In this document: piece by piece, positions 1 to 60,491 of the stretch
Layout: each line of letters begins with the position of its first letter
How positions within the stretch are numbered: the first letter of the stretch is position 1
Assembly: GCA_022829145.1 (NCBI GenBank)
Contig: CM040747.1
Location: forward strand, 38,952,052-39,016,051
DNA length: 64,000 bases
Source of the DNA: Albula goreensis
Lineage: Eukaryota; Chordata; Actinopteri; Albuliformes; Albulidae
Reading direction: 5' to 3'
Made by a program: the position numbers and the translations under genes
Notes under the pieces: generated by a model
Databases searched by the model: none
What the model saw: only the letters and a program-made list of their open reading frames with translations
What the model was told of the DNA's origin: nothing

Positions 1-447
1 GCTGGAGGAGTTGCATCAGACTGAATTCTCTCTCCTTCTTCAAGTTCAGGTCTCGGAAAGGAAGAGTGAAGATTAAATTAATATCCTGATTGGCTTTTCC
101 TTCTGCCCAGTCCAGAATGAACTTCTGCACAGAGACAGTTTTCCCAATGCCAGCGATGCCCTTTGTAAGCACAGTTCTGATGTGTTTCTTTTGTCCAGGT
201 AAAGGTTTAAAGATGTCATTGCAGAGGATTGCAGTCTCCTGTGTGGTTTGTCTCTTGGATGCTGCCTCAATCTGTCTGACCTCATGTTCATTATTGACCC
301 TCCCACCTCCCCCCTCTGTGATGTAGAGTTCTGTATAGATCTCATTGAGGAGGGTTGGGTGGCCCTGCTGTACCAAACCTTCAAATATGCATTCAAACTT
401 CTTCTTCAGATCAGATTTCAGTGTCTGTTGGGCTCTTGGGACTTTTT
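1..447 (-). CDS. NLRC3-like NLR (gene 1): FISNA plus start of NACHT exon, partial
   Basis: This is the large exon of a fish NLR innate-immune receptor, cut by the left edge of the window. The exon starts at 447 after a TTCTCAG acceptor and stays open for about 149 codons. The first part reads as the FISNA domain that precedes NACHT in fish NLRC3-like proteins (for example [20 protein letters not shown]). The NACHT Walker A motif GIAGIGKT lies at 160-137, followed by [19 protein letters not shown] and LPFRDLNL, as in the family. The domain binds nucleotide and drives oligomerisation in the cytoplasm. Two bases at the exon start complete the codon left by the pyrin-like exon at 1575-1806, so the splice is in frame. 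The rest of NACHT and any LRR or B30.2 lie outside. I see no disabling change. Confidence 0.93.
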
Positions 448-1574: not shown

Positions 1575-1806
1575 TCTTCTGCTCATCTCTCTCCAGTGAG
1601 TCTGCAGGATCCTTCTGCTTTATGGTCCTCAGGATGTGGAGTGTGATCTTCAGAGATCTCTCACTGCCACAGGTCTCCAGCATCTTCTCAACTACATGCA
1701 GGGCCTCAAGGTCCTCCTGTTGTCTATCAGAGCATTCTGGGTAATACTGACTCAGATGGCTGTGAAACTGTTTCAACTCCTCCTTCTTCAACTTCATCAG
1801 AGTGCG
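1575..1806 (-). CDS. NLR gene 1: pyrin-like death-fold exon
   Basis: This 232-bp exon encodes about 77 residues of a six-helix death-fold of the pyrin/DAPIN type found at the N-terminus of many fish NLRs. Diagnostic pieces are LMKLKKEELKQFHSHL near the start and LKITLHILRTIKQKDPADSL near the end. The domain would recruit an adaptor through homotypic pyrin contacts. The acceptor is TCTCTCCAG at 1807-1815 and the donor is GTAAGAC after 1575. The exon enters in phase 0, matching the exit of the 70-bp linker exon, and leaves one base that joins the FISNA exon in frame. The intron just upstream on this strand holds a 40-bp minisatellite built from the acceptor region itself. A CARD-like assignment is less likely but cannot be excluded without a profile search. 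Confidence 0.88.
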
Positions 1807-1810
1807 CTGG

Positions 1811-2190
1811 AGAGACTGAAATAAAGACATGAAGAGGTGTGCTGTATCAGAGAAACTGAAATAAAGACATGAAGAGGTGTGCTGTATCAGAGAGACTGAA
1901 ATAAACACATGAAGAGGTGTGCTGTATCAGAGAGACTGAAATAAACACATGAAGAGGTGTGCTGTATCAGAGAGACTGAAATAAACACACAAAGAGGTGT
2001 GTTGTATAAGAGACTGAAATAAACACATGAAGAGGTGTGCTGTATCAGAGAGACTGAAATAAACACACAAAGAGGTGTGTTGTATAAGAGAGACTGAAAT
2101 AAACACATGAAGAGGTGTGCTGCAACAGAGAGACTGAAATCAACATATGAAGAGGTGTGCTGTATTCAAATGACTGAAATAAACGTAGCG
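1811..2190. repeat. 40-bp minisatellite repeating a 3' splice-site motif
   Basis: About ten tandem copies of a roughly 40-bp unit (one of 38 bp) lie directly upstream, on the minus strand, of the pyrin-like exon. Each unit reads on the minus strand as a pyrimidine-rich run ending in TTTATTTCAG, so the array repeats an acceptor-like signal. The copy nearest the exon merges into the acceptor at 1807. Open frames across it are by-products of the repeat. Confidence 0.93.
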
Positions 2191-6340: not shown

Positions 6341-6934
6341 TCCTGCAGCTCTAAGACAGCTGGGTACAGGTGACCCTGCGTTCGTTAAATTAGAAGGGCA
6401 TCCAGTTAACCTCATCCTCTCACTGCAGCTCTAACTCACAGCACATGGAGACAGAGCTTCCAGTTAACCTCATCCTCTTACTGCACCTCTAACTCACAGC
6501 ACATGGAGACAGAGCTTCCAGTTAACCTCATCCTCTTACTGCAGTTATAACTCACAGCACATGGAGTGAATATATTATTTTATTATGCAGTTAAATAAGT
6601 GATATCCAAAATGTAGAATGTTTATTTATCTCTTCTTTAAATCTATTGATTAGCAAAGGTTCTACATTTTGCACAACTTGTTCAGGATTAAGCCTTAATT
6701 TTATTAGAAATGTGTTGAAGACTGCTGAGTACAATGAAGAGTGTGATGAAAACATTTAGTCCTTTTTACACAGTTCACAGCATGAACACAGATTCAGATG
6801 AATTTCTTTCTCAAGCAATAAAATTTTACTTTATTTAAGCGCAGAGGAACTGTCCCCCCACCCTACCTACACCAGACTGTAGCCTGTAAGAGTGAGGAAT
6901 TATGAAACTGCAGTGTAAATATGAAAATGTTTAC

Positions 6935-7045
6935 CTTGGATCAGCTGCTGATTCTCCTCTTAATGTGAATGGTTGCTCCATTGACCAGTCACTCTTCACT
7001 GACAGACAGCTGGGTACAGGTGACCCTGTTCTCTCCACCTGGACC
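6935..7045 (-). CDS. NLR gene 1: N-terminal cassette exon, copy 4 (most 3')
   Basis: This 111-bp exon has acceptor TTTCCACAG and donor GTAAAC. It encodes a 37-residue module typical of fish NLRC3-like N-termini, with SPVPSCLSVKSDWSMEQPFT in the middle and ending ESAADPR. It enters and leaves in phase 2, so any number of such exons can be spliced together in frame. Its sequence is identical to the copies at 8859-8969 and 10053-10163. The function of the module is not known to me; in fish NLRs it precedes the death-fold or FISNA region. Confidence 0.85.
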
Positions 7046-7722
7046 CTGTGGAAAGCACATGGAGACAAAGCTTCCAGTTAACCTCATCCTCTTAGTGCAG
7101 CTCTAACTCACAGCACATGGAGACAGAGCTTCCAGTTAACCTCATCCTCTTACTGCAGCTCTAACTCACAGCACATGGAGACAGAGCTTCCAGTTAACCT
7201 TATCCTCTTACTGTAGCTCTAACTCACACCACATGGAGACGGAGCTTCCAGTTAACCTCATCCTCTTACTGCAGCTCTAACTCACAGCACATGGAGACAG
7301 AGCTTCCAGTTAACCTCATCCTCTTACTGCACCTCTAACTCACAGCACATGCAGTGAATATCTTATTTTATTATGCAGTTAAATAAGTGATATCCAAAAT
7401 GTAGAATGTTTCTTTATCTCTTCTTTAAATCTATTGATGAGCAAAGGTTCTACATTTTGCACAACTTGTCCATGATTAAGCCTTAATTTTATTAGAAATG
7501 TGTTGAAGACTGCTGAGTACAATGAAGAGTGTGATGAAAACATTTAGTCCTTTTTACACAGTTCACAGCATGAACACAGATTGAGATGAATTTCTTCCAA
7601 AACCAATAAAATTTTACTTTATTTAAGCGCAGAGGAACTGTCCCCCCACCCTACCTGAACCAGACTGTAGCCTGTAAGAGTGAGGAATTATGAAACTGCA
7701 GTGTAAATATGAACCTGTTTAC

Positions 7723-7833
7723 CTTGGATCAGCTGCTGATTCTCCTCTTAATGTGAACGGTTGCTCCATTGACCAGTCACTCTTCACTGACAGACAGCTG
7801 GGTACAGGTGACCCTGTTCTCTCCACCTGGACC
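7723..7833 (-). CDS. NLR gene 1: N-terminal cassette exon, copy 3
   Basis: This has the same length, phase and splice signals as the exon at 6935-7045. It differs from the other three copies by one synonymous base (a proline codon, CCG for CCA), so its protein is identical. The near-perfect match to its neighbours means recent duplication or gene conversion. Confidence 0.85.
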
Positions 7834-8858
7834 CTGTGGAAAGCACATGGAGACAAAGCTTCCAGTTAACCTCATCCTCTTACTGCAGCTCTAACTCACA
7901 CCACATGGAGACAGAGCTTCCAGTTAACCTCATCCTCTTACTGCAGCTCTAACTCACAGCACATGGAGACAGAGCTTCCAGTTAACCTCATCCTCTTACT
8001 GCACCTCTAACTCACAGCACATGGAAAAAGAGCTTCCAGTTAACCTCATCCTCTTACTGCAGCTCTAACTCACAGTACATGGAGACAGAGCTTCCAGTTA
8101 ACCTCATCCTCTTACTGCACCTCTAACTCACAGCACATGGAAAAAGAGCTTCCAGTTAACCTCATCCTCTTACTGCAGCTCTAACTCACAGCACATGGAG
8201 ACAGAGCTTCCAGTTACCCTCATCCTCTTACTGCAGCTCTAACTCACAGCACATGGAGACAGAGCTTCCAGTTAACCTCATCCTCTAACTGCAGCTCTAA
8301 CTCACAGCACATGGAGACAGAGCTTCCAGTTAACCTCATCCTCTTACTGCACCTCTAACTCACAGCACATGGAGACAGAGCTTCCAGTTAACCTCATCGT
8401 CTTACTGCAGCTCTAACTCACAGAACATGGAGACAGAGCTTCCAGTTCACCTCATCCTCTTACTGCAGTTATAACTCACAGCACATGGAGTGAATATCTT
8501 ATTTTATTATGAAGTTAAATAAGTGATATCCAAAATGTAGAATGTTTCTTTATCTCTTCTTTAAATCTATTGATTAGCAAAGGTTCTACATTTTGCACAA
8601 CTTGTTCAGGATTAAGCCTTAATTTTATTAGAAATGTGTTGAAGACTGCTGAGTACAATGAAGAGTGTGATGAAAATATTTAGTCCTTTTTACACAGTTC
8701 ACAGCATGAACACAGATTCAGATGAATTTCTTTCTCAAGCAATAAAATTTTACTTTATTTAAGCGCAGAGGAACTGTCCCCCCACCCTACCTACACCAGA
8801 CTATAGCCTGTAAGAGTGAAGAATTATGAAACTGCAGTGTAAATATGAACCTGTTTAC

Positions 8859-8969
8859 CTTGGATCAGCTGCTGATTCTCCTCTTAATGTGAATGGTTGC
8901 TCCATTGACCAGTCACTCTTCACTGACAGACAGCTGGGTACAGGTGACCCTGTTCTCTCCACCTGGACC
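8859..8969 (-). CDS. NLR gene 1: N-terminal cassette exon, copy 2
   Basis: A 111-bp phase 2-2 exon identical in coding sequence to the copies at 6935 and 10053, with intact acceptor and GTAAAC donor. It is followed on the transcript by its own minisatellite block. Confidence 0.85.
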
Positions 8970-10052
8970 CTGTGGAAAGCACATGGAGACAGAGCTTCCA
9001 GTTAACCTCATCCTCTTACTGCAGCTCTGACTCACAGCACATGGAGACAGAGCTTCCAGTTAACCTCATCCTCTTACTGCAGCTCTAACTCACAGCACAT
9101 GGAGACAGAGCTTCCAGTTAACCTCATCCTCTTACTGCAGCTCTAACTCACAGCACATGGAGACAGAGCTTCCAGTTAACCTCATCCTCTTACTGCAGCT
9201 CTAACTCACAGCACATGGAGACAGAGCTTCCAGTTAACCTCATCCTCTTACTGCAGCTCTAACTCACAGCACATGGAGACAGAGCTTCCAGTTAACCTCA
9301 TCCTCTTACTGCAGCTCTAACTCACAGCACATGGAGACAGAGCTTCCAGTTAACCTCATCCTCTTACTGCAGCTCTAACTCACAGCACATGGAGACAGAG
9401 CTTCCAGTTAACCTCATCCTCTAACTGCAGCTCTAACTCACAGCACATGGAGACAGAGCTTCCAGTTAACCTCATCCTCTTACTGCAGCTCTAACTCACA
9501 GCACATGGAGACAGAGCTTCCAGTTAACCTCATCCTCTTATTGCAGCTCTAACTCACAGCACATGGACAAAGAGCTTCCAGTTAACCTCATCTTCTTACT
9601 GCAGCTCTAACTCACAGCACATGGAGACAGAGCTTCCAGTTCACCTCATCCTCTTACTGCAGTTATAACTCACAGCACATGCAGTGAATATCTTATTTTA
9701 TTATGCAGTTAAATAAGTGATATCCAAAATGTAGAATGTTTCTTTATCTCTTCTTTAAATCTATTGATTAGCAAAGGTTCTACATTTTGCACAACTTGTC
9801 CGTGATTAAGCCTTAATTTTATTAGAAATGTGTTGAAGACTGCTGAGTACAATGAAGAGTGTGATGAAAACATTTAGTCCTTTTTACACAGTTCACAGCA
9901 TGAACACAGATTCAGATGAATTTCTTTCTCAAGCAATAAAATTTTACTTTATTTAAGCGCAGAGGAACTGTCCCCCCACCCTACCTACACCAGACTGTAG
10001 CCTGTAAGAGTGAGGAATTATGAAACTGCAGTGTAAATATGAACCTGTTTAC

Positions 10053-10163
10053 CTTGGATCAGCTGCTGATTCTCCTCTTAATGTGAATGGTTGCTCCATT
10101 GACCAGTCACTCTTCACTGACAGACAGCTGGGTACAGGTGACCCTGTTCTCTCCACCTGGACC
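10053..10163 (-). CDS. NLR gene 1: N-terminal cassette exon, copy 1 (nearest the start exon)
   Basis: A 111-bp phase 2-2 exon, the first reached from the start exon at 10797-10934. The start exon leaves AG, and the first G of this exon completes an arginine codon, giving RVQVERTGSPVPSC. Splice signals are intact. It is identical to copies 2 and 4. Confidence 0.87.
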
Positions 10164-10796
10164 CTGTGGAAAGCACATGGAGACAAAGCTTCCAGTTAAC
10201 CTCATCCTCTTACTGCAGCTCTAACTCACAGCACATGGAGACAGAGCTTCCAGTTAACCTCATCCTCTTACTGCAGCTCTAACTCACAGCACATGGAGAC
10301 AGAGCTTCCAGTTAACCTCATCCTCTTCCTGCAGCTCTAACTCACAGCACATGGAGACAGAGCTTCCAGTTAACCTCATCCTCTTACTGCAGCTCTAACT
10401 CACAGCACATGGAGACAGAGCTTCCAGTTAACCTCATCCTCTTACTGCAGCTCTAACTCACAGCACATGGAGACAGAGCTTCCAGTTAACCTCATCCTCT
10501 TCCTGCACCTCTAACTCACAGCACATGGAGACAGAGCTTCCAGTTAACCTCATCCTCTTACTGCAGCTCTAACTCACAGCACATGGACAAAGAGCTTCCA
10601 GTTAACCTCATCCTCTTACTGCAGCTCTAACTCACAGCACATGGAGACAGAGCTTCCAGTTAACCTCATCCTCTTACTGCAGCTCTAACTCACAGCACAT
10701 GGACAAAGAGCTTCCAGTTATCCTCATCCTCTTACTGCAGCTCTAACTCATTTGTAATGTATTAATTAAAGTAGAATCTGTTCCATGTATTCATAC

Positions 10797-10934
10797 CTCT
10801 TGCTTTTAGGGCTGGAGGTTCCAGCGCTGGTCTCTGGCTCCCCAGAGTGACTCGATTTTGAGACAGCACCCCCCATTCTCAGGAGACTGGGCCAGAACTG
10901 ACCATGAAACAGTTCTCACCCAAATTTAACAGAC
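10797..10934 (-). CDS. NLR gene 1: translation-start exon with shifted start codon
   Basis: The exon begins after acceptor GTGTTTACAG and ends at donor GTATG. In the paralogous exon at 33445-33591 translation starts at an ATG giving MSLSGEPETS. Here that ATG is broken by one inserted C (AAAATCGAG instead of AAAATGAG). Another ATG, at 10876, opens the same frame a few codons earlier and gives MGGAVSKSSHSGEPETS, 26 codons plus AG. The new N-terminus fits the N-myristoylation pattern (Gly2, Ser6, Lys7). An earlier ATG in the leader opens only an eight-codon frame. The exon fits the cassette exon in phase. Whether the shifted start is used is inference. Confidence 0.78.
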
Positions 10935-16115: not shown

Positions 16116-16676
16116 ATGGCAACAGAACCCACAGCAACAATGACTTTTATCACCATCTTCATCTGGGCACTCGCTTTCTGCATTCAGAGTGAGATAAATA
16201 CTTTGTCAAATTCAAATGATTCTCCAACTACAGAAAATATCAAACATTAGTTTTATAATTTATATTAATACATGTACATTCAAATCTGTAAGTGTACATT
16301 GTGTTTAGTAATGCTATTTACACAGTGAATCTCTCTCTCTCTGCAGAGTCTTGGGGGCAGGTGGTTCTCACTCAGTCTCCAGCCCAGTCAGTTCTGACGG
16401 GTCAGTCAGTCTCTATTGACTGTAAGGTCAGTACTATCATTAGCTGTACCAATAGTGCCAGGTACTGTCTCCACTGGTACCAGCAGAAATCTGGAGAAGC
16501 TCCTAAACTCCTGATCAAACTCACATCAGAGAGAGTATCTGGAGTGCCCTCTAGATTCAGTGGCAGTGGGAGAGGAAATGGCCTCGACTTCACTCTGACC
16601 ATCAGTGGAGTCCAGGCTGAAGATGCAGGAGATTACTACTGTCAGAGTTTACACTCCATCAATGGCTGGGTGTTCA
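16116..16676 (+). CDS. Immunoglobulin light-chain V segment 1 (kappa-like), leader plus V exon
   Basis: A germline antibody light-chain V segment. The leader exon is 16116-16188 ([20 protein letters not shown]..., a hydrophobic signal peptide; a second ATG in frame could also start it), donor GTGAGA. The V exon is 16347-16676 after acceptor CTCTGCAG. The V domain has the framework-1 Cys (SIDC), [25 protein letters not shown] and AEDAGDYYC with the second Cys. The germline CDR3 part is [11 protein letters not shown]. It is open throughout and flanked by a perfect 12-spacer RSS, so it should be able to rearrange. Two oddities: CDR1 carries an extra cysteine pair ([10 protein letters not shown]), and framework 3 has two extra residues ([10 protein letters not shown] against GSGSGTDF). 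Confidence 0.93.
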
Positions 16677-16704
16677 CACAGTGATAGAGAGCCGTACAAA
16701 AACC
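16677..16704 (+). promoter_or_regulatory. Recombination signal of V segment 1 (12-bp spacer)
   Basis: Heptamer CACAGTG, a 12-bp spacer and nonamer ACAAAAACC, all consensus. A 12-spacer on V is the kappa-type arrangement and predicts a J partner with a 23-bp spacer. Confidence 0.96.
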
Positions 16705-20157: not shown

Positions 20158-20735
20158 ATGGCAACAGAACCCACAGCAACAATGACTTTTATCACCATCT
20201 TCATCTGGGCACTCACTTTCTGCATTCAGGGTAAGGGTTGGGAACATTCAGAAACACATTATAATTGTCAACTGAAAAGTTATAAAATCAACTAAAACAC
20301 GTTTTCCTGTGATGTCATCAGATAATCTGATTGTTACATGTCTATTAAATAATATATGTTGTATGTTGCTAAATACAGGATTTTTAAGGTGTTGCTTCTT
20401 CTCCTTAGAGTCTACAGGACAGGTGACTGTGACTCAGACTCCTGCTGGTAAATTTTCTCTCATAGGAGACACTGTCACCCTGAGCTGTAAAACCAACCCC
20501 GCTGTGTACACCAGTAGTGGTTATCACCTCCTAGCCTGGTATCAGCAGAAACCTGGAGAAGCTCCTAAACTCCTGATCTATGCTGCAACATCACGTAACT
20601 CAGGGATTCCTGATCGATTCAGTGGCAGTGGATCTGGGACTGACTTCACTCTGACCATCAGTGGAGTCCAGGCTGAAGATGCAGGAGATTACTACTGTCA
20701 GAGTGTACATGAGATCAACAGTAATGGTGTGTTAA
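20158..20735 (+). CDS. Immunoglobulin light-chain V segment 2 (kappa-like)
   Basis: The leader exon is 20158-20230 (donor GTAAGG). The V exon is 20409-20735 after acceptor CTCCTTAG; the split codon gives Glu, then [14 protein letters not shown]. Hallmarks are [10 protein letters not shown] (first Cys), [34 protein letters not shown] and AEDAGDYYC. The germline CDR3 is [12 protein letters not shown]. It is open and has a consensus 12-RSS. It shares the CDR1 length of V segments 3 and 4 rather than the cysteine-rich CDR1 of V segment 1. Same orientation as V segments 1 and 3. Confidence 0.94.
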
Positions 20736-20763
20736 CACAGTGATAGAGAGCCGTACAAAAACC
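20736..20763 (+). promoter_or_regulatory. Recombination signal of V segment 2 (12-bp spacer)
   Basis: CACAGTG, a 12-bp spacer identical to that of V segment 1, and ACAAAAACC. Confidence 0.96.
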
Positions 20764-31278: not shown

Positions 31279-31778
31279 NNNNNNNNNNNNNNNNNNNNNN
31301 NNNNNNNNNNNNNNNNNNNNNNNNNNNNNNNNNNNNNNNNNNNNNNNNNNNNNNNNNNNNNNNNNNNNNNNNNNNNNNNNNNNNNNNNNNNNNNNNNNNN
31401 NNNNNNNNNNNNNNNNNNNNNNNNNNNNNNNNNNNNNNNNNNNNNNNNNNNNNNNNNNNNNNNNNNNNNNNNNNNNNNNNNNNNNNNNNNNNNNNNNNNN
31501 NNNNNNNNNNNNNNNNNNNNNNNNNNNNNNNNNNNNNNNNNNNNNNNNNNNNNNNNNNNNNNNNNNNNNNNNNNNNNNNNNNNNNNNNNNNNNNNNNNNN
31601 NNNNNNNNNNNNNNNNNNNNNNNNNNNNNNNNNNNNNNNNNNNNNNNNNNNNNNNNNNNNNNNNNNNNNNNNNNNNNNNNNNNNNNNNNNNNNNNNNNNN
31701 NNNNNNNNNNNNNNNNNNNNNNNNNNNNNNNNNNNNNNNNNNNNNNNNNNNNNNNNNNNNNNNNNNNNNNNNNNNNNN
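31279..31778. other. Assembly gap (500 N)
   Basis: The left side is V-unit flank and the right side is the 58-bp minisatellite of an NLR intron. The two do not belong together in any other copy in the window, so a misjoin is possible. Confidence 0.99.
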
Positions 31779-32615
31779 CACATGGAGACAGAGCTTCCAG
31801 TTAACCTCATCCTCTTACTGCAGCTCTAACTCACAGCACACGGAGACAGAGCTTCCAGTTAACCTCATCCTCTTACTGCAGCTCTAACTCACAACACATG
31901 GAGACAGAGCTTCTAGTTAACCTCATCCTCTTCATGCAGCTCTAACTCACAGCACATGGAGACAGAGCTTCCAGTTGAACTCATCCTCTTACTGCAGCTC
32001 TAACTCACAGTACATGGAGACAGAGCTTCCAGTTAACCTCATCCTCTTACTGCAGCTCTAACTCACAGCACATGGAGACAGAGCTTCCAGTTAACCTCAT
32101 CCTCTTACTGCAGCTCTAACTCTCAGCACATGGAGACAGAGCTTCCAGTTAACCTCATCCTCTTACTGCAGCTCAAACTCACAGCACATGGAGACAGAGC
32201 TTCCAGTTACCCTCATCCTCTTACTGCAGCTCTAAATCACAGCACATGGAGACAGAGCTTCCAGTTAACCTCATCCTCTTACTGCAGCTATAACTCACAG
32301 CACATGGAGACAGAGCTTCCAGTTAACCTCATCCTCTTACTGCAGCTCTAACTCACAGCACATGGAGACAGAGCTTCCAGTTACCCTCGTCCTCTTACTG
32401 CAGCTCTAACTCACGGCATGTGGAGACAGAGCTTCCAGTTAACCTCATCCTCTTACTGCAGCTCTAACTCACAGCACATGAAGACAGAGCTTCCAGTTAA
32501 CCTCATCCTCTTACTGCAGCTCTAACTCACAGCACATGGAAACAGAGCTTCCAGTTAAACTCATCCTCTTACTGAAGCTCTAACTCACAGTACATGGAGA
32601 CAGAGCCTCCAGTTT
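31779..32615. repeat. 58-bp minisatellite, NLR gene 2 intron
   Basis: About fourteen copies of the same 58-bp unit seen in NLR gene 1, with slightly more variation. A few further copies lie at about 33265-33400 next to the start exon. Confidence 0.93.
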
Positions 32616-32802
32616 GAATGTGATGTGGTACACCCCACCTACACCTGAGTTTGACAAAGCATTCCTATCCTACACCTGAATGTGAAATGGTACACCATCA
32701 TACACCTGAATATAACATGGCACACCCCACCTACACTTGAATGTTGCCATTGACAGATAAACATAATGATAATGAAGTGTAAATATTCACCCATTTTCTT
32801 AC

Positions 32803-32913
32803 CTTGGATCACCTTTAAATCCTCCACTGAATTGTATGGGTTCTCCCATTGATAGGTCACTCTTCATTGACAGACAGCTGGGTACAGGTGACCCTGCTCT
32901 TTCACTCTGGATC
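32803..32913 (-). CDS. NLR gene 2: N-terminal cassette exon
   Basis: A 111-bp phase 2-2 exon, donor GTAAG, acceptor TAGTAG (an alternative AG lies three bases earlier and also keeps frame). It encodes RIQSERAGSPVPSCLSMKSD, continues LSMGEPIQFSGG and ends GDPR, clearly homologous to but diverged from the four gene 1 copies. Only one copy is visible before the gap. Confidence 0.83.
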
Positions 32914-33444
32914 CTACTAGAGAATAGAAACATTGCATATTTGTTTTAGAGCATGATTTGGTGAAAACAGCCCAGCAATTCAAGGTAACATCAAATATTT
33001 TCTGGCATAAAACAAGCTAATTTTCATACTGTCCTACGAAGAATACTTAATGTACAGAATTACCTTGGTGATCAGTAAAACTGTGGGGAAAACAATTTTC
33101 GCAAGATTTCAATTTCTACAGGTTGTTAAGCACAGCAATATACAATACTGACTCATAAAACACAATGTTGGAACTTGAGGTGCAGAGGCAACATGAAGGA
33201 ACAAGAATTAGAAAATCACCTTGTAGCTGAGAAAGCACTTCAATCTCTCACCTTAAAAGACTCTTAATTCAGCTCTAACTCAGAGCACATGGAGACAGAG
33301 CTTCCAGTTACCCTCATCCTCTTCCTGCAGCTCTAACTTACAGCACATGGACACAGAGCTTCCAGTTAACCTCATCCTCTTATTGCAGGTCTAACTCATT
33401 TATAATGTATTATTTAAAGTACAATCTGTTCCAGATATTCATAC

Positions 33445-33591
33445 CTCTTGCTTTTAGGGCTGGAGGTTCCAGCGCTGGTCTCTGGTTCCCCAGAGAGACT
33501 CATTTTAGAGACAGCGCCCCCTGTCTCAGGAGACTGGAAAATGACTGACCAGAACTGACCATGGAACAGTTCTGACACAGATCTAACAGAC
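33445..33591 (-). CDS. NLR gene 2: translation-start exon
   Basis: The coding part is 33445-33503: MSLSGEPETSAGTSSPKSK plus AG, which joins the cassette exon in frame. The acceptor is GTGTTTACAG and the donor GTATG, as in gene 1. The leader carries an upstream ATG (about 33562) whose 20-codon frame ends in a TGA overlapping the main start (ATGA). MSLSGE is a common start of fish NLRC3-like proteins. Later exons are lost beyond the gap at 31.3-31.8 kb. Confidence 0.87.
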
Positions 33592-42526: not shown

Positions 42527-43105
42527 ATGGCAACAGAACCCACAGCAACAATGACTTTTATCACCATCTTCATCTGGGCACTCGCTTTCTGCATTCAGGG
42601 TGAGATTCATAAAAAATATTCAAATATATATGAGTATGTCTTACATTTTAATAAAATGAAAGCAAGAAGAATGAAATCACTGTATGCAATCACTTTGCAA
42701 AACAATTATTTGGACAATGGTGTGACATTCTAAAGTGTCGATGGATGATATAAAACATATTAATATTCTTCCCTTCAGTATCCACAGGACAGGTGACTGT
42801 GACTCAGACTCCTGCTGGTAAATCTGCTCCCATAGGAGACACTGTCACCCTGAGCTGTAGAACCAGCCCTGCAGTTCATGTCTGGAGTGGTTATCACCAC
42901 CTAGCCTGGTACCAGCAGAAACCTGGAGAAGCTCCTAAACTCCTGATCTATGGGGCAACATCACATAACTCAGGGATTCCTGATCGATTCAGTGGCAGTG
43001 GATCTGGTACTGACTTCACTCTGACCATCAGTGGAGTCCAGGCTGAAGATGCAGGAGATTACTACTGTCAGAGTACACATGTGATCAGCAGTAGCAGGGT
43101 GTTCA
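42527..43105 (+). CDS. Immunoglobulin light-chain V segment 3 (kappa-like)
   Basis: The leader exon is 42527-42599 (donor GTGAGA). The V exon is 42779-43105 after acceptor CCCTTCAG; the split codon gives Val, then [14 protein letters not shown]. It has [44 protein letters not shown] and AEDAGDYYC, with germline CDR3 [12 protein letters not shown]. It is open and has a consensus 12-RSS. The leader exon has no stop before its donor, so an unspliced frame reads into the intron; that longer frame is not a separate gene. Its 3' flank is shared with V segment 4 and leads into the left arm of the inverted duplication. Confidence 0.94.
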
Positions 43106-43133
43106 CACAGTGAAAGACAGCCGTACAAAAACC
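43106..43133 (+). promoter_or_regulatory. Recombination signal of V segment 3 (12-bp spacer)
   Basis: CACAGTG, a 12-bp spacer (differing at a few bases from V segments 1 and 2) and ACAAAAACC. Confidence 0.96.
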
Positions 43134-49740: not shown

Positions 49741-49895
49741 CTCCAGTTGGCATAGGGACACTGAGGTGTTATACCCATACACTCTAAACCCAGCACAGAG
49801 GGGTGTGTGTGTGTGTGTGTGTCTCTACTCCAGTTGGCACAGGGATACTGAGGTGTTATACCCATACACTCTAAACCCAGCACAGAGGGGTGTGT
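49740..49895. repeat. About 90-bp tandem duplication of the B30.2 3' end
   Basis: The segment from CTACTCCAGTTGGCA to CCCAGCACAGAGGGGTGTG occurs twice in tandem, each with a GT run. The upstream copy on the transcript holds the stop codon in use; the second copy lies in the 3' UTR. Confidence 0.9.
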
Positions 49896-50428
49896 GTTCA
49901 GTGAAGTTGGTGTGGAATCTGTGCAGGAGGGTCAGTGTGTCAGAGTCAGAGACGCCGTAGAAGGACAGAGTGCCGGCCGGACGGTCCACACACACTCCTA
50001 CTCTGTACACACACACTCCTTCACCATCATCATCATCACACACTCCTACTCTGCGGTAGGGGAAGGGGGGGGCAGGTATGTGTGTTTGATTCTTATTGTG
50101 ACAGACAGAGTATCTGTGTTTAGAGCAGGACAGACTCCAGGAGTTTTTATTCCATCCAAACCACAGTCATCACCCCGTCCTTTCCTGCTGATTCCTTTAT
50201 ATGTCACTGCTATATGAACCCCTCCCCACTCAGACACACTCCACTCAGCCTCCCAGTAACAGCGTCCAGACAGACTCTCTCTGCACAAAACCTGGGGCCT
50301 CCGGTCAAATCTCTCTGGATGATCAGGATATGGCTGCTCTCTCTCTGTGTATGTCACCTTCCTGTTCCCCTCAGACAGAGACAGCTCTCTGTGCGCTGTG
50401 TTTGGATCCAGTGTGAGCTGACAGCCAT
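49825..50428 (-). pseudogene. B30.2 (PRY-SPRY) terminal exon with one frameshift
   Basis: The acceptor is GGTCTGCAG before 50428. The PRY part reads DGCQLTLDPNTAHRELSLSE, then NRKVTYTEREQPYPDHPERF. The SPRY part reads LSGRCYWEAEWS and VHIAVTYKGISRKG. A base missing near 50142 shifts the frame; the next frame continues the domain (RPAGTLSFYGVSDSDTLTLL, FTEHTPLCAGFRVYGY) to a stop at 49825. An in-frame insertion with four aspartates and a second RVGVCV copy lies in the shifted part. B30.2 ends many fish NLRC3-like and TRIM proteins and binds ligands. It is either a pseudogene or carries a sequencing error; its other exons lie across the gap. Confidence 0.85.
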
Positions 50429-50467
50429 CTGCAGACCAGAGACATTAATGAGATTAATTATCATTGT

Positions 50468-59910: not shown

Positions 59911-59938
59911 GGTTTTTGTATGGCTCTCTATCACTGTG
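59911..59938 (-). promoter_or_regulatory. Recombination signal of V segment 4 (12-bp spacer)
   Basis: On the minus strand CACAGTG (59938-59932), a 12-bp spacer and ACAAAAACC (59919-59911). The signal faces away from V segments 1-3. Confidence 0.96.
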
Positions 59939-60491
59939 TGAACACCCAGCCACTGATGGAGTGTAAACTCTGACAGTAGTAATCTCCTGCATCTTCAGCC
60001 TGGACTCCACTGATGGTCAGAGTGAATTCAGTCCCAGATCCACTGCCACTGAATCGATCAGGAATCCCTGAGATACGCTGATTTACAAACTTTATCAGGA
60101 GTTTAGGAGCTTCTCCTGGCTTCTGGTTATACCAGGCCATTCTTTCACCATGACTGTCTTTATACACAGCAGGGCTGGTTCTACAGCTCAGGGTGACAGT
60201 GTCTCCTATGAGAGCAGATTTACCAGCAGGAGTCTGAGTCACAGTCACCTGTCCTGTGCATTCTGAAGGAAATAATAAACAACATATAACTGTATTATCT
60301 ATACATGGGAAATATTATAATATAGGGTGATACATTTAGTTATTTCAAATATGTATTACATTTAAATTAAAACAAGCAATCAATACAAAATATACTTCAG
60401 TAATTTTAAAAATCTCACCCTGAATACAGAAAGTGAGTGCGCAGATGAAGATGGTGATAAAAGTCATTGTTGCTGTGGGTTCTGTTGCCAT
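59939..60491 (-). CDS. Immunoglobulin light-chain V segment 4 (kappa-like), inverted
   Basis: The leader exon is 60491-60419 (donor GTGAGA); a tryptophan of the other leaders is cysteine here (IFICAL). The V exon is 60262-59939 after acceptor TTCCTTCAG. It has [40 protein letters not shown] (WYNQ instead of WYQQ), [33 protein letters not shown] and AEDAGDYYC, with germline CDR3 [11 protein letters not shown], close to V segment 1. It is open and has a perfect RSS. It is the only V on the minus strand and lies at the outer edge of the inverted duplication. Confidence 0.94.

Follow-up and report, generated by a model that had tools for sequence, protein, structure and literature searches.

We analysed a 64,000-nt stretch of the Albula goreensis genome (GCA_022829145.1, contig CM040747.1, positions 38,952,052 to 39,016,051; hereafter the window). 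Its minus strand carries part of an NLR gene in which a short N-terminal exon is present in four copies, set among arrays of a 58-bp tandem repeat. The parts of this gene, in the order of the transcript, are as follows.

10797-10876, minus strand: modelled exon 1 (MGGAVSKSSHSGEPETSAGTSSPKSKR), ending in phase 2 (exon-1 homology across loci, spliced model and pattern search)
10172-10750, minus strand: 58-bp array of 10.0 units, upstream of repeat exon copy 4 (Tandem Repeats Finder, TRF)
10053-10163, minus strand: repeat exon copy 4, first in the transcript, encoding a 37-residue module, phase 2-2 (mismatch scan)
8978-9681, minus strand: 58-bp array of 12.1 units (TRF)
8859-8969, minus strand: repeat exon copy 3 (mismatch scan)
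7842-8490, minus strand: 58-bp array of 11.2 units (TRF)
7723-7833, minus strand: repeat exon copy 2, with one silent change (mismatch scan)
7054-7351, minus strand: 58-bp array of 5.1 units (TRF)
6935-7045, minus strand: repeat exon copy 1, last in the transcript (mismatch scan)
6401-6566, minus strand: remnant of a 58-bp array, 2.9 units (TRF)
6353-6380, minus strand: relic holding exon positions 16-43 and then minisatellite-like sequence, an exon/unit recombinant (exon profile and chimera comparison)
1810-2184, minus strand: second minisatellite, with a 40-bp unit, across the acceptor and first codons of the PYRIN exon (tandem-repeat scan and locus comparison)
1575-1855, minus strand: PYRIN-domain exon as modelled, phase 2 in and phase 1 out (Pfam PF02758, E = 3.6e-12; spliced model)
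1-447, minus strand: 5ʹ part of the FISNA-NACHT exon, which runs beyond the window to C7:38950711 (Pfam FISNA/NACHT; spliced model)

The four 111-bp copies were located by a mismatch scan at exactly the span given by an earlier sequence-only reading, which had described four exons with intact splice sites, three of them identical and one with a silent change, that fit the frame in any number. Each of these points was borne out. Copies 4, 3 and 1 (10053-10163, 8859-8969 and 6935-7045) have no differences, and copy 2 (7723-7833) differs once, at exon position 76, a third codon position, where CCA has become CCG. The acceptor, ending in TTTCCACAG, and the donor, GTAAAC, are present at all four. 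As the exons are of phase 2-2, the first nucleotide finishing the preceding codon and the last two being carried over, the frame is kept in silico with any copy number. Indeed, a spliced model of exon 1, zero, one, two, three or four copies, the PYRIN exon and the FISNA-NACHT exon remained open in every case until a frameshift in the NACHT exon. The 37-residue module had no Pfam match above cut-off, and in a charge-hydropathy estimate of disorder it scored 0.437, close to the boundary of 0.423.

TRF likewise recovered the 58-bp arrays by which the copies were said to be spaced, in runs of 5.1, 11.2, 12.1 and 10.0 units, which stop 8 bp short of each exon. The exon fragment at 6353-6380 adjoins the last array and had been missed before. 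Non-array intron amounts to ~370 bp per block, and the copies of it differ by 1.9-3.8%, with private variants. These variants form a mosaic: near one end they are shared by copies 1 and 3 and by copies 2 and 4, while in mid-intron copy 2 alone differs, as would be expected of exchange or conversion between blocks. By eye, the unit consensus on the gene strand also contains a donor-like GTGAGT and an acceptor-like CTGCAG, and decoy splice sites may thus be numerous in the arrays.

We then placed the exon within its family. Over the whole 932-Mb genome, a 22-base exon core gave 455 matches at up to two mismatches, and a 42-base core of the 58-bp unit gave 3,580, against none for the reversed control pattern in either case. 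In a protein search, all 150 exon places scored, from 540 candidates, were free of stops. The same number of PYRIN-exon matches was scored from 185 candidates, with about 137 rows at 60% identity or more by hand count; some exons account for two rows, and the rows below 60%, which go down to 36% identity, may be other PYRIN families. The listed exon and PYRIN places are found for the most part towards the ends of C7 and C8 and close to the start of C17. Exons were compared across 22 sources, namely the window, 18 loci mostly chosen for several exon hits (L011-L028) and three chosen for unit hits (L029-L031); loci L001-L008 contributed to the exon-profile seed and were excluded from the counts as duplicates of other loci. 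Each locus was taken for a single gene, an assumption that may fail in some cases, and some loci are cut at their fetched ends. The sources yielded 106 full-length exons, with AG at the expected place in 103 and GT in 101; 101 exons passed all tests, including the absence of stops, at two to ten intact copies per source. For the identity and substitution-rate comparisons, five exons were left out because they had stops or lacked a splice dinucleotide. Copies within a locus differed on average at 6.2 of 111 positions (211 pairs) versus 20.1 between loci (4,839 pairs), and the nearest copy lay in the same locus for 83 of 100 exons. Copying of a higher order was also visible: exons with and without an adjacent unit alternate in L025, and a block of ~2.4 kb, including weak, divergent exon matches, recurs in L024.

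Beside most of these exons, the 58-bp unit occupies a fixed place. Its core ends exactly 25 nt upstream of 72 of the 106 exons and lies within 60 nt of 78, but in the opposite orientation within 60 nt of none. At least one exon with a core within 60 nt was found in 20 of the 22 sources, the exceptions being L026 and L030. A TTAAC motif in the unit puts its A at −33 in 72 of the 101 intact exons. Exon-to-exon distances in L021 equal 147 + 58k, with k from 1 to 3, in all nine intervals, and the first part of the exon is fused to unit-like sequence at five places (the window, L011, L012, L016 and L028), with an exon/unit fusion of another kind in L020. Exons were also present in L029-L031, array clusters outside the main NLR clusters that had been picked through the unit search. 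By hand count, the 100 exact unit places listed, out of the 3,580 matches, form about 19 clusters, all but one of which, at C2:10.08 Mb, lie within ~5 kb of a listed exon or PYRIN exon. The coupling of exon and minisatellite that the sequence-only reading had singled out is thus real in that arrays and exons are closely paired, but it is not peculiar to this gene. A derivation of the unit from the exon was also considered and is not supported, as the local alignment score of 17 was matched by 39 of 500 shuffles.

Divergence was compared between each exon and the next 100 intron bases, dropping pairs whose flanks were shorter than 100 bases, poorly aligned or more than 25% diverged; pairs from the same locus are not independent of each other. 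Across 21 loci, divergence was 3.22% in the exon versus 6.98% in the intron, and the exon was the less diverged in 17 (sign test, p = 0.007), which indicates constraint or preferential homogenisation. Between loci, with one exon from each of 23, differences at codon positions 1, 2 and 3 numbered 1750, 1483 and 2266, and the ratio of nonsynonymous to synonymous rates (dN/dS, NG86) was 0.75; control reading frames gave no usable pairs. Both the codon-position bias and the ratio fit translation of the family and are silent on the frameshifted window copy.

Collectively, these data make it quite probable that the window holds the 5ʹ end of a fish FISNA-type NLR gene whose repeat exons were copied in blocks, with a 58-bp splice-site unit of their own. 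Each tandem block would consist of a 58-bp array, the 111-bp exon and ~370 bp of intron. The unit, whose predicted branch point falls at −33 relative to the exon, would represent the surroundings of the exon's own 3ʹ splice site, repeatedly expanded and copied along with the exon. The tandem arrangement, mosaic variants, 58-bp length steps and exon/unit chimeras suggest that the number of homologous blocks would rise and fall through unequal exchange or conversion, acting between copies of the intron, the array or the exon. This would take place in a genome with hundreds of such exons, of which the sampled loci, mostly chosen as multi-copy, hold two to ten intact copies each.

Several observations weigh against this reading. 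No recognisable unit core lies within 60 nt of 28 of the 106 exons (some have one at 66-129 nt). The array at C2:10.08 Mb (L052 2223-2871, chosen for unit hits and outside the 22 sources) gave no match to an NLR exon within the 5.5 kb fetched, and the unit can thus occur without the exon. By motif match, the A at −33 is a plausible branch point; its position follows from the fixed place of the unit, and the two counts of 72 are therefore not independent. The exon is more diverged than the intron in 4 of the 21 loci, and a dN/dS of 0.75 implies protein constraint that is modest or mixed with diversifying change. Comparing exon and intron among the four window copies, a check proposed with the sequence-only reading, did find the intron more variable (19 of 371 columns, versus 1 of 111 in the exon), but the contrast is suggestive only and not significant (p = 0.057). 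Selection as the cause of exon identity is accordingly supported only over the sampled loci and not within the window gene.

We next consider the gene that hosts these exons. Its assignment to the NLR family was upheld, with FISNA (PF14484, E = 1.1e-34) and NACHT (PF05729) matches at 2-436 on the minus strand of the window in addition to the PYRIN domain. A single large exon, running from 447 to C7:38950711, encodes FISNA immediately N-terminal of NACHT, and the part of this exon outside the window (L009) matches NACHT, NOD2_WH and NLRC4_HD2. Members of the family have leucine-rich repeats and, in some cases, B30.2 at the C-terminus; here a leucine-rich-repeat-like frame, judged by eye, is located ~17.5 kb downstream of the NACHT exon (L010 924-1172), and no B30.2 was attributed to the gene. 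The 40-bp minisatellite at the PYRIN exon was found, at 5-31 units, in all 10 PYRIN loci fetched (L032-L041, L032 being the window's own gene); every unit repeats an acceptor-like end, and L039 has no AG at the matching place. To stay in frame, the window gene model must use an acceptor that lies one 40-bp unit upstream of the PYRIN domain. A junction at the closest acceptor (exon start 1815) was rejected, as it breaks the frame and meets stops almost immediately.

The frameshift in the NACHT exon, of 1 nt, lies at about C7:38951872-38951879, ~175 bp past the window edge, where GGG stands in place of the GGGG run of relatives; the sequence-only reading had not included it. With four modules, the frame stops soon afterwards, at residue 505, before the winged helix and HD2. 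Ten NACHT exons were examined, from 40 scored matches of 196 candidates: three have GGG (the window gene, C7:41.34 Mb and C7:41.07 Mb) and seven have GGGG. Since the shift recurs at three sites of the assembly, it is unlikely to be a random sequencing error. Exon 1 of the window gene reads TCG where most other exon-1 copies found have ATG, and an in-frame ATG exists upstream. In two paralogs, the window gene (10853-10876) and L013 (about 2088-2115), the usual ATGAGT start has given way to TCG/ACG, and the upstream in-frame ATG begins MGGAVSKSS and MGGANSKTS, respectively, which we take to resemble an N-myristoylation signal. A pattern search for this upstream start, allowing up to two mismatches, found three places, with ATG in two (the window and L013).

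This gene copy does not have an intact full-length receptor frame. The sequence-only reading spoke of a receptor, but the frameshift makes a full receptor from this copy unlikely. That the copy is dead debris, a pseudogene with an exon array that yields no product, is an evenly balanced prospect. The lost G, shared by 3 of 10 NACHT exons, and the changed start codon point that way; on the other hand, the modelled N-terminal exons, phases and splice sites are all intact, the NACHT frame is open before the shift and for 387 aa beyond it, and an in-frame ATG lies upstream. A truncated PYRIN protein could be made. We infer that this copy is probably either a pseudogene or the source of a truncated N-terminal/PYRIN protein.

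The sequence-only reading had further proposed that the arrays drive exon copying by unequal exchange and that the length of the N-terminus hence varies between individuals. Every repeat exon of this gene is indeed flanked by arrays on either side, unit number varies from 1 to 43 per run in the sampled loci, and both the 58-bp length steps of L021 and the exon/array chimeras would fit such a process, for which passages of PMC2812944 on the reshaping of recent human paralogs by minisatellites offer a precedent. Array length, however, does not predict exon number: units per intron and exon copies were uncorrelated over 22 loci (Spearman rho = 0.007, p = 0.98). L021, with the most copies (10), has a mean of 2.1 units in each intron; the four copies of L022 have one unit per intron, and the two of L030 have none between them. 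Ordinary exchange between homologous blocks would be enough for the copying. Since multi-copy loci were favoured in the sample and some loci are cut, an array-driven mechanism is lowered by this result rather than excluded, and we regard it as possible but doubtful.

Regulated alternative splicing, giving one to four modules per receptor, is in our judgement unlikely. The symmetric exon phase would allow it, and the donors, GTAAAC here and with a base other than G at +5 in 73 of the 101 intact exons, could make exon inclusion leaky; yet compatibility with the frame is common to the sampled relatives and is explained by tandem copying alone. Expansion of a single exon block in the assembly, a concern in a gapped region (the window has three 500-N runs, and a 58-bp array ends at one of these), is highly improbable because the introns of the copies differ and carry private variants, array sizes differ between copies, no N run lies among the four, and 21 further loci of the same assembly have the same design.

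Beyond block copying as such, the 58-bp unit might be a portable 3ʹ splice-site (branch-point) module, forming with the exon a cassette that keeps making new N-terminal lengths that would differ between individuals, with the 40-bp array at the PYRIN acceptor as a second, independent case. We consider this extension unlikely. If it were true, an exon could be duplicated wherever the unit sits, bringing functional splice signals with it and finding a partner for recombination already in place. A unit with a likely branch point at a fixed distance from most sampled exons connects tandem-repeat instability with splicing and receptor architecture in a concrete way that can be tested.

Elsewhere, the window contains the following elements.

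33437-33512, minus strand: exon 1 region of a second NLR N-terminus (MSLSGEPETSAGTSSPKSKR; homology to exon 1 of other loci)
32803-32913, minus strand: fifth, divergent repeat exon (26 differences) of the second N-terminus, with a different acceptor sequence (mismatch scan)
31779-32614, minus strand: 58-bp array of 14.4 units, ending at a 500-N gap at 31279-31778 (TRF)
16292-16684, plus strand: immunoglobulin V-set segment, light-chain-like by eye (domain search)
20276-20743, plus strand: V-set segment, as above
42754-43113, plus strand: V-set segment, as above
59931-60314, minus strand: V-set segment, as above
49828-50444, minus strand: PRY match (E = 2.2e-24), with SPRY matched in a different frame and below the curated cut-off (22.7 of 26.3 bits; domain search)

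The fifth repeat exon, absent from the sequence-only reading, has its nearest upstream unit core 387 nt away, and the second N-terminus (31779-33512) had no partner among the listed PYRIN and NACHT matches inside the window. The PRY/SPRY segment at 49828-50444, which adjoins a 500-N gap, looks like a frameshifted B30.2 exon. Each of the four V-set segments, which are interspersed with NLR pieces, is followed by a CACAGTG heptamer, a 12-base spacer and ACAAAAACC, an arrangement that we take to be recombination-signal-like.

Tandem blocks of near-identical, in-frame exons whose copy number is free to vary are familiar from the kringle IV-2 variable number tandem repeat of LPA, where the units are of kilobase size and without a short minisatellite, and where population variation is established. 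The blocks described here resemble them in being tandem, near-identical and in frame, as read from one assembly. A second comparison is with human segmental duplications, in which, according to passages of De Grassi and Ciccarelli (2009, PMC2812944), minisatellite expansion alters the exons and introns of recent paralogs, including exon-intron boundaries. Both cases concern minisatellites in the exon-intron structure of recent paralogs; in the human one the repeat itself alters exon or intron, whereas here whole exons are copied in array-containing blocks.

A third comparison is with the FISNA-NLR family of zebrafish, also called NLR-B30.2 or NLR-C. Passages of Howe et al. (2016, PMC4852459) describe a family reaching hundreds of genes, in which groups 2-4 carry several repeats of a ~30-aa peptide motif, each on a single exon, with extensive duplication of the repeats in groups 2b and 3b and death-fold domains in groups 1 and 2. 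This agrees with the earlier statement that tandem N-terminal repeats are known in fish NLRs, and exon amplification as such is therefore not new. Passages of PMC11192531 (eLife 2024) place 97 of 101 zebrafish pyrin-domain (PYD) genes in group 1, report premature stops in nearly 10% of sequences, and note that fish NLR copy number varies between individuals. The A. goreensis genes are like those of zebrafish in having FISNA and NACHT on one large exon and one-exon N-terminal repeats whose number varies by gene, the likeness considered being one of architecture. They are also clustered, as in zebrafish, where most genes outside chromosome 4 lie towards chromosome ends. Death-fold domains occur in a subset of the zebrafish family, and the gene model here has both PYRIN and the repeats. 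A difference is that most sampled copies here have a 58-bp intronic unit upstream of them in a constant position. Neither PMC4852459 nor PMC11192531 uses the word minisatellite in its main text, and the titles and abstract openings listed by searches of the open-access literature showed no link between exons and minisatellites in NLRs. A paper on haddock (PMC5894186) has the word a single time. What goes beyond the known exon repeats is the pairing with the 58-bp unit, common to most of the relatives sampled.

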